From: Anaeromusa acidaminophila DSM 3853
GTDB taxonomy: Bacteria > Bacillota > Negativicutes > Anaeromusales > Anaeromusaceae
DNA length: 64,000 nucleotides
Reading direction: 5' to 3'
NCBI RefSeq assembly: GCF_000374545.1
Contig: NZ_KB894586.1
Coordinates: forward strand, 62,001 to 126,000
The notes under the pieces were generated by a model that worked only from the letters and a program-made list of their open reading frames with translations, was not told the DNA's origin and searched no databases. Positions within the stretch are counted from its first letter, which is position 1; each line of letters opens with the position of its first letter. The position numbers and the translations under genes are program-made. Shown here piece after piece: positions 44,129 through 46,061 of the stretch.

Positions 44129-45568
44129 TTAGAAATACAAATCGCGTGTACCGCTTTGGATTTTTTCCAGCTCGCGGCGGGTGGCGTCCCGGACGTCGGC
44201 CTGAGGAATCGAGGCTAACTGCTCGGCGATTACTTTTTCTCCAACACTGCGAGTTTCTTCATCCGCATAGTCAAGCAGATATTCCTGGAGTGTTAAAAGA
44301 GCGTTGGGGAGACAGACATTCTGAATTTCGCCAGTTTTAGCCAGCGCCATGAAGCGGTCCCCTGTGCGGCCTTGGCGGTAACAGGCGGTGCAATAGGAAG
44401 GCACATAACCTTGGGCGCAGAGCATGCGGATAATTTCGTTAGGCGAGCGGCCGTCGCTGGGCTCAAATTGCATCCCGCTGCTTTCTGGATCCAGGCGCTC
44501 GTCGGGGTGCGCTTGCAATTGGGCATACCCGCCGACGCCAGTACAGGAACCGGCGCTGATTTGAGAAATACCGTAGCGAATAAGGCGGTCTCTTGTGCCC
44601 GGTTCTTCCCGGGTGGATAGGATCATGCCTGTGTAAGGAACTGCCAGACGGATGATGGCGATGATTTTGGCGAAGGCTTCATCGTCGACTAAATAGGGGA
44701 AGGTTTCGAGATTGATGCCGCTGGCCGGACGCATGCGCGGTACGGAAATTGTATGCGGGCCGACGCCGAAAGTGCGTTCTAAATGTTCGGCGTGCAGGAA
44801 AATAGCCACGGTTTCATATTTATAGTCATATAGGCCGTAGAGTACGCCCAAGCCTACGTCATCAATGCCAGCTTTCATAGCGCGGTCCATGGCAGTGGTG
44901 TGCCAGTTGTAGTCCTGTTTTGGCCCGCCTGGATGAAGGGCGGCATACGTAGGCCTGTGATAGGTTTCCTGGAAAAGAATATAAGTGCCAATGCCGGCTT
45001 CTTTTAGTTGACGATATTCGTCAATGGTCGTGGCGGCAATGTTGACATTGGCCCGGCGTATGTTGCCGTTACCGCTTTTGCTGGCGTAAATTTCTTTGAG
45101 CATGTCAGTAACATAGCTGATAGGGCAGTTGACCGGATCCTCGCCAGCCTCGACGGCCAGACGTTTATGGCCCATGTCCTCCAGAATTTCCGCTTCGCGG
45201 CGGACTTCTTCGGCGGTAAGCCGGCGGCGCAACTGCTTTTCGTTGCTGCAGCGGTAGCCGCAGTAGGTGCAGTTGTTAACACAATAGCTGGAAAGATAAA
45301 GCGGCGCAAAAATGACGATACGCTGGCCGTAAATGTCCTTTTTTACTTGTTCCGCCGTTTGAAATAATTCTTCTTGCAGCTTTGAATCGTCAACTTGAAG
45401 CAAGACGGCCACTTCCGCTGCGGTTAGTCCTTGGTGGCCAGCAGCTTTGGCGATGATGGCGCGTACCTGATCGACATCTTGGGCTGTTTTTTTTCCTGCA
45501 GCCAACAATTCTTCTATGCGGGCCTCGTCGATAAAGGCGTCGCTGGTACGTTCTGCATTGCTAATCAT
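44129..45568 (-). CDS. hydG: [FeFe]-hydrogenase maturase HydG
   Basis: A 479-residue radical SAM enzyme that splits tyrosine into p-cresol, CO and cyanide, and builds the Fe(CO)2CN synthon of the H-cluster. The SAM cluster cysteines are 96, 100 and 103 (CVNNCTYC). The C-terminal auxiliary cluster motif CxxC-x22-C (CTAC ... NVC) separates it from ThiH. ATG 45568 follows AAGGAGG by 9 bases; a 14-codon longer frame runs into the upstream gene. It overlaps the TM1266-like gene by 8 bases. HydE, HydF and the hydrogenase are not in the window. Confidence 0.94.
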   Translation of the reverse strand: MISNAERTSDAFIDEARIEELLAAGKKTAQDVDQVRAIIAKAAGHQGLTAAEVAVLLQVDDSKLQEELFQTAEQVKKDIYGQRIVIFAPLYLSSYCVNNCTYCGYRCSNEKQLRRRLTAEEVRREAEILEDMGHKRLAVEAGEDPVNCPISYVTDMLKEIYASKSGNGNIRRANVNIAATTIDEYRQLKEAGIGTYILFQETYHRPTYAALHPGGPKQDYNWHTTAMDRAMKAGIDDVGLGVLYGLYDYKYETVAIFLHAEHLERTFGVGPHTISVPRMRPASGINLETFPYLVDDEAFAKIIAIIRLAVPYTGMILSTREEPGTRDRLIRYGISQISAGSCTGVGGYAQLQAHPDERLDPESSGMQFEPSDGRSPNEIIRMLCAQGYVPSYCTACYRQGRTGDRFMALAKTGEIQNVCLPNALLTLQEYLLDYADEETRSVGEKVIAEQLASIPQADVRDATRRELEKIQSGTRDLYF

Positions 45569-45830
45569 GAGCAGGGGCCTCCTTTTTTGCTGTAAGAGCT
45601 GATTTGACAATTACGCCGGGCAGATTTCCAAGACGGCCGGTGAAGGCGCCTACGTCGTCGGTGGAGCCTTCCACAATCAAGGCGATGACGCCTGAATCAG
45701 TGCCGTGATGGGGAATTCCCATGCGGCCAACGATAAGATGACGGTACTGGCTGATTAACTGGTTGACTTTTCCGGCGATAGTCTCAGGAGATTCTACGAC
45801 AATACCGATGACGCCAATTCGTTTTTCCAT
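45561..45830 (-). CDS. TM1266-like iron-only hydrogenase system regulator
   Basis: An 89-residue small protein of the TM1266/ACT-like family found beside hydrogenase maturation genes. Seen: RIGVIGIVVESPETIAGKVN, GRMGIPHHGTDSGVIALIVEG and GNLPGVIVKSALT. It resembles a NikR-type ACT domain without the DNA-binding part, so any regulatory role is indirect or unproven. ATG 45830 lies 6 bases after AAGGAGG. It leads the hydG operon behind a 195-base leader. Confidence 0.88.
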   Translation of the reverse strand: MEKRIGVIGIVVESPETIAGKVNQLISQYRHLIVGRMGIPHHGTDSGVIALIVEGSTDDVGAFTGRLGNLPGVIVKSALTAKKEAPAHD

Positions 45831-46030
45831 ACACAACCTCCTTCGGAGTCCAGGCTGAAAAAATGCAAAAGCCTCTCTTTAGACACAATTTAAGAGAGGC
45901 GCAGAAAACAAAAAAAGCCTCTCCGACCGCGCAGGCAGAAACCCTTGCGTTCACAGCAGGACCACATGTATGTTCCTTGACAGCTTGTTTAAAAACAGGC
46001 AAACATTCTGTCGCAGAATTACTTTTTTCT
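45831..46030 (-). promoter_or_regulatory. Leader with terminator/antiterminator pair before the hydG operon
   Basis: On the minus strand GCCTCTCTT (45900-45892) pairs with AAGAGAGGC (45879-45871), followed by TTTTGCATTTTTT: an intrinsic terminator before the first gene. The same GCCTCTC can instead pair with GAGAGGC at 45923-45917, which would break it. Upstream is a symmetrical two-tier hairpin, GACAG..TGTTT / AAACA..CTGTC. The layout is that of an attenuator or riboswitch, but I recognise no known aptamer. Confidence 0.6.
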
Positions 46031-46031
46031 T

Positions 46032-46061
46032 ATTATACACCGAATAGATTGAATTCGTAAA
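46032..46061 (-). promoter_or_regulatory. Promoter of the hydG operon (minus strand)
   Basis: Minus-strand TTTACG (46061-46056), 18 bases, TATAAT (46037-46032). The leader would start near 46025. Confidence 0.65.

Follow-up and report, generated by a model that had tools for sequence, protein, structure and literature searches.

How does a cell adjust transcription of a hydrogenase maturation operon whose first gene stands behind a long leader? The question is raised by a locus of Anaeromusa acidaminophila DSM 3853 (class Negativicutes, phylum Bacillota), which lies in a stretch of 64,000 nt (GCF_000374545.1, contig NZ_KB894586.1, positions 62,001-126,000, forward strand), hereafter called the window. 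The minus strand of the locus carries, in this order, a sigma-70-type promoter, a leader some 190 nt long, a TM1266-family gene and hydG; trmL diverges from this operon on the opposite strand. A preliminary description of this DNA had the leader control hydG. hydG does belong to the operon, but as its second gene, and the TM1266-family gene (TIGR03959) comes first. The protein encoded by the latter scores 42.8 bits against PDB 2nzc. The hydE and hydF genes of the same genome are located on contigs other than that of TM1266-hydG, and a weak TM1266-like paralogue (28.5 bits, G000:C9:136358-136588) is seen about 9 kb from hydF. Elsewhere in the window, five tRNA-Leu genes (CAG, GAG, CAG, CAG, GAG) lie within about 1.6 kb at 254-1826, which suggests local duplication. 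The operon is built from the following elements.

46032..46061, minus strand: sigma-70-type promoter TTTACG-18-TATAAT, from a pattern scan; its -10 box lies 11 nt from the motif start
45837..45843, minus strand: Shine-Dalgarno sequence AAGGAGG of the TM1266-family gene, from the sequence
45561..45830, minus strand: TM1266-family gene, operon gene 1 (TIGR03959, 99 bits, cut-off 60.8)
44129..45610, minus strand: hydG, operon gene 2 (TIGR03955, 664.6 bits, cut-off 312)

Between promoter and first gene, the leader contains two hairpins and, downstream of them, a terminator with a competing pairing.

45919..46020, minus strand: conserved two-hairpin RNA motif, the putative sensor (covariance model R1, 76.5 bits, E 1.3e-15)
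45974..46017, minus strand: hairpin A, UCU-GC (usually GA)-variable stem-loop-AA-GGA, with double-sided changes in 10 of 13 pairs over 39 leaders
45922..45961, minus strand: hairpin B, UCC..GC-AA-GGG..CCU-GC-GC..GGA, its core nearly invariant in 39 leaders
45917..45924, minus strand: antiterminator 5' strand GGAGAGGC, overlapping the sensor 3' end (sequence, forced folds, pairing test)
45893..45900, minus strand: antiterminator 3' strand GCCTCTCT, which is also the terminator 5' arm (sequence, forced folds, pairing test)
45871..45900, minus strand: intrinsic terminator hairpin, GCCTCTCTT..12 nt..AAAGAGAGGC (sequence, folding)
45870-45858, minus strand: TTTTGCATTTTTT, directly 3' of the terminator hairpin, from the sequence

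The preliminary description had proposed a promoter ahead of an intrinsic terminator at 45900-45871 of the minus strand, together with an upstream copy of the terminator 3' arm, GAGAGGC at 45923-45917. All three are found exactly there, the promoter boxes at 46061-46032, and the copy extends to GGAGAGGC at 45924-45917. An initial terminator scan by pattern allowed loops of up to 8 nt and therefore did not list this terminator with its 12-nt loop. The terminator hairpin has a folding energy of -13.9 kcal/mol, reached by none of 200 shuffles, and the alternative antiterminator hairpin one of -12.3 kcal/mol, reached by 4 of 200. The two states had also been described as mutually exclusive, and GCCTCTCT is indeed common to both pairings; when a 152-nt leader is forced into either fold, energies of -48.0 kcal/mol (terminator) and -45.9 kcal/mol (antiterminator) are obtained, so that the two states lie close in energy. 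The unconstrained minimum-energy fold of the whole 196-nt leader is the antiterminator form, and its stability relative to shuffles (z = -2.12) is weak evidence by itself. A single sequence proves little here, and the decisive evidence is comparative. Seven T at 45916-45910, directly after GGAGAGGC, give the antiterminator a U-rich loop, possibly a pause site or a weak extra terminator.

TM1266 relatives were found in 39 of 60 genomes searched, and in 15 of the 18 closest loci (L005-L022, at least 57% identity) a shared leader motif was recognized by eye; it is absent from the leaders of the other three (L009, L015 and L017). A covariance model, R1, was built from ten of these 15 leaders. The window sequence is among its seeds, so that the window score of 76.5 bits holds by construction. 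Across 380 genomes of the same class, R1 found one match in each of 27 genomes, 26 of them directly before a TM1266 gene; the one match placed otherwise (L179) scores lowest, with 25.6 bits. Across the phylum, 2 of 398 genomes matched, namely that of the window and one more, likewise before TM1266-hydG. A second model, R2, built from 29 leaders, was run over the class of Solidesulfovibrio (297 genomes) and gave 12 matches, all before TM1266-hydG. A pattern scan of genome contigs returned at least 117 stretches, of which 117 were scored with R1 and six bear the real motif (L053, L055, L091, L107, L121, L122). The matches listed include Desulfovibrio sp. DV, Solidesulfovibrio aerotolerans and a Geobacter metagenome-assembled genome, all before TM1266-hydG, the first two being among the 12 matches of R2; the other stretches listed look like chance by their R1 scores. 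Altogether, the covariance models identify 40 motif leaders (26 in the class of the window, one elsewhere in the phylum, 12 in the Solidesulfovibrio class and one in the Geobacter genome). A TM1266-family gene lies directly downstream of every one, followed by hydG in 39 and by hydE in one (L171, 379.8 bits). For the window's class, a -10 box (TATAAT or TATACT) was located at the motif start or within 15 nt of it in the 26 leaders, from which it is inferred that the RNA begins at or just before the sensor.

An upstream hairpin had been suggested as the sensor, and the upstream hairpins turn out to be the most conserved and covarying part of the leader. The 39-leader consensus consists of hairpin A (UCU-GA-variable stem-AA-GGA), a linker and hairpin B (UCU..GC-AA-GGG..CCU-G(C/A)-GC..GGA). 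Most relatives have UCUG..CAGGA in hairpin B, and the genus of the window diverges at UCUG and AGGA; the UCC:GGA base of its hairpin B was inferred by eye. Covariation was measured on MAFFT alignments of 29 and of 39 leaders, which leave out L179 (no TM1266 gene) and L156 (a near duplicate of L157), as well as the divergent leaders L026, L027 and L213, which resemble those of the window's TM1266 lineage. The covariation score is 0.413 against 0.156 in shuffled data for 29 leaders and 0.436 against 0.168 for 39 (0/500 shuffles), and it falls to at most 0.134 when pairing partners are slid. Consistently, 91.7% of paired cells can pair in the 39 leaders, against 76.4% after shuffling, and the basal U-A pair of hairpin A is replaced by G-C in 12 of 39. 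Eleven pairs have double changes, a count that 40 of 500 shuffles also reached and that is a weak measure alone. Because hairpin B is almost invariant, with one pair being G.U in 35 of 39 leaders, covariation says little about it. A version of hairpin B with a two-nucleotide bulge leaves 96.6% of cells paired and was set aside for a symmetric 2x2 loop, which does slightly better (99.3%). The motif thus has an aptamer-like structure, conserved and covarying, as is asked of a riboswitch.

Attenuation demands a terminator between promoter and first gene and a conserved, mutually exclusive antiterminator. The first is present in the window and, between motif and start codon, in 36 of 40 leaders (26 of 30 in the first set, 10 of 10 added). 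No terminator was found in L165, L166, L169 and L175, where the motif 3' end lies directly beside the Shine-Dalgarno sequence; this arrangement suggests translational control, and these four leaders are probably a translational version of the same device. For the second, the 3' tail of each motif was paired with its own terminator arm and with arms permuted between leaders, the four terminator-less leaders being omitted. In a first run on 26 leaders, matched tail:5'-arm duplexes reached -11.63 against -9.83 kcal/mol (2/20000 permutations; 167/20000 for 16 non-redundant leaders). After later leaders were added, the window's class gave -12.56 against -10.09 kcal/mol in 22 leaders (0/20000; 3/20000 for 13 non-redundant leaders), and the test over all 36 terminator leaders gave 50/20000 (429/20000 for 19 non-redundant ones). 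A lack of conserved alternative pairings among relatives had been named beforehand as the outcome that would refute attenuation, and the 22 leaders of the window's class passed this test. The GG of the motif could be located in 22 of 36 leaders; in 19 of these, it takes part in the pairing of the best duplex. In the Solidesulfovibrio class, the tails of the 12 leaders pair with the 5' arm no better than permuted ones (7870/20000), and for them the second demand is fulfilled only with the 3' arm (36/20000), a post hoc test chosen after the sequences had been seen. As a general rule, 3'-arm pairing is ruled out for the window's class (17331/20000). GCCATG occurs closely 3' of the motif in the Solidesulfovibrio-class leaders L055, L122 and L239-L248.

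A conserved structure, a fixed gene context, a terminator and, in the window's class, a co-varying antiterminator are thus shown by comparison. We consider it probable, in the absence of any experiment, that the leader RNA acts in cis and controls the TM1266-hydG operon by sensor-driven transcription attenuation. Transcription would start at or just before the motif, and the sensor would consist of two hairpins folded by the nascent RNA, each with a UCU..GGA base. Its final nucleotides (..GGA and the G.. that follow) would, in the window's class, double as the 5' strand of the antiterminator, with the terminator 5' arm as partner. As one strand closes the sensor and opens the antiterminator, a folded sensor and read-through are mutually exclusive in this class, and an OFF switch is indicated. 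A signal, the existence of which is inferred, may stabilize the sensor and block the antiterminator, which leaves the terminator free to fold and end transcription; in the absence of the signal, the antiterminator would form and the operon would be read. The OFF direction is likewise an inference. The preliminary description of an attenuator or riboswitch-like leader is supported in that the pairings co-vary in the window's class, the hairpins are conserved and the element is linked to [FeFe]-hydrogenase maturation operons, and sensing of a ligand has not been shown.

H-cluster assembly produces and handles CO and cyanide. As the effector, a small molecule or a metal species from this pathway (such as a product of HydG, iron or a substrate) seems to us more likely than a protein, the signal itself being inferred. 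No second credible copy of the motif was found in the window's genome with R2 at E up to 10, and hydE and hydF lie elsewhere, so that in this genome the RNA appears to serve the TM1266 operon only; this fits a pathway ligand as well as the TM1266 protein as effector. A bolder proposal is that H-cluster assembly itself supplies the ligand, one of its products or intermediates (such as the Fe(CO)2(CN) synthon, or CO or cyanide from HydG) being sensed directly by the RNA, and that the K, M and M2 leaders, the latter two described below, form one superfamily that also governs nitrogenase-like TM1266 operons. This remains speculative and rather improbable as a whole. If true, an organometallic cofactor would for the first time have an RNA switch.

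That the TM1266 protein instead binds the leader and regulates its own operon, in the manner of ribosomal-protein leaders, is unlikely but a possibility to be taken seriously. TM1266 is the only constant partner of the motif (40 of 40 leaders, whether hydG or hydE comes next), NCBIfam names it a putative regulator, and the isolation of the operon from hydE, hydF and any further motif copy fits such autoregulation. As in protein-binding autogenous leaders such as the L10 leader (RF00557), the RNA is placed before the gene of a possible regulator. However, a leader always precedes whichever gene opens its operon, and constant adjacency to TM1266 is therefore expected either way; the three close TM1266 genes without the motif count against autoregulation. 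In addition, no DNA- or RNA-binding domain has been identified in TM1266, and the single relative with a solved structure that was found is labelled 'hypothetical protein'.

Terminators in 5' untranslated regions can merely set an expression level, and no experiment shows switching here. The leader could accordingly be an ordinary structured untranslated region that serves RNA stability or constitutive partial termination. We regard this as very unlikely, because the antiterminator co-varies species by species (0/20000 in 22 leaders), one motif is backed by two kinds of expression platform, and its gene specificity is strict. Attenuation by a ribosome on a leader peptide could draw on an ATG in the window that opens 25 codons 6 nt downstream of the AAGGA in hairpin A. 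This explanation is scarcely tenable and was rejected for want of a conserved peptide: a frame of at least 8 codons is present there in only one of 35 scored leaders, that of the window (five were unscored, their AAGGA not being located), and in 12 leaders AAGGA is changed to AAGGC, paired to GCU. Chance repeats beside an unrelated terminator, for which only the moderate z-score of the whole leader speaks, are refuted by the class distribution of R1 matches, the covariation and the tail:arm pairing, and their likelihood is next to nil.

A scan against known RNA families had been proposed at the outset. With the covariance models of Rfam 15, no family matched the window leader at the gathering threshold; lax filters gave two matches only, both far below gathering, and nothing was found on this motif at gathering in the leaders of 15 relatives. 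A T-box model is present in Rfam, and none of these searches of the window leader or the 15 relatives gave a T-box match. In the literature that could be searched, which lacked most subscription papers and included passage searches of PMC8632094 and PMC10418091, no description of such a leader and no RNA regulation of the HydE, HydF or HydG maturases was found. As far as these searches reach, the leader may thus represent a new, so far undescribed class of attenuating RNA on hydrogenase maturation operons. Like riboswitches with intrinsic-terminator platforms, it has a compact aptamer-like fold at the transcript start, the 3' strand of which is common to the antiterminator, and it uses a terminator or a Shine-Dalgarno platform depending on the lineage; unlike them, it has no known ligand and matches no Rfam family in sequence and structure. 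The ldh2 riboswitch candidate, linked to malate/L-lactate dehydrogenase genes, is comparable in that it, too, is a structured RNA of Negativicutes that comparative work turned up as an orphan (PMC8632094); that text contains no 'hydG' and no word beginning 'hydrogenase'. With a conserved leader on maturation operons of several bacterial groups, what the cell senses becomes directly testable. The leader also offers a lead on the 'putative regulator' TM1266 and is a possible biosensor part.

TM1266 genes occur in 119 of the 380 genomes of the window's class. In this analysis, K-type denotes the TM1266 lineage of the window and M-type a second lineage, which precedes a canonical hydG (932.8 bits in L202) and has conserved leaders that differ from those of K. 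By pattern, 64 distinct upstream regions divide into 23 M, 9 M2 and 32 others, including further variants and the K leader L255. The M-type leader, UCUGACGGUAAACC..AUCGUNCUGA..GAGAAGGCGAG, is conserved and attenuator-like (L181-L184, L186, L188, L191, L193, L200, L202, L214-L219, L223, L228, L250). Its overall sequence differs from the window motif, and R2 has no significant match in it. Shared with that motif are the position before TM1266 and a conserved tail:terminator pairing: M tails pair better with their own terminator arms than with those of other leaders (23 leaders, 17/20000). No credible Rfam 15 match was found in the M-type leaders scanned. An assignment to the L10 leader family was rejected, as its scores of 28.3 and 25.9 bits, seen only on L030 and L228, are far below gathering (44); the window motif has no such match. 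That the sister TM1266 lineage has an attenuator of a second type makes general attenuation of this operon class more plausible.

The M2 leaders carry the K-type hairpin-B core, GCAA[AG]G..CUGCGC. This pattern, which was chosen post hoc, is present in 9 of 63 non-K leaders (seven M2 and two others), against 0.005 expected from shuffles. The matched antiterminator test was not significant for the nine M2 leaders (19018/20000), the sequences of which hardly vary.

At one locus with an M2 leader bearing the hairpin-B core (L196, 2-1470, minus strand), a TM1266 gene is followed by NifH-like and NifE/D-like genes. The open reading frames of L194 are arranged similarly.
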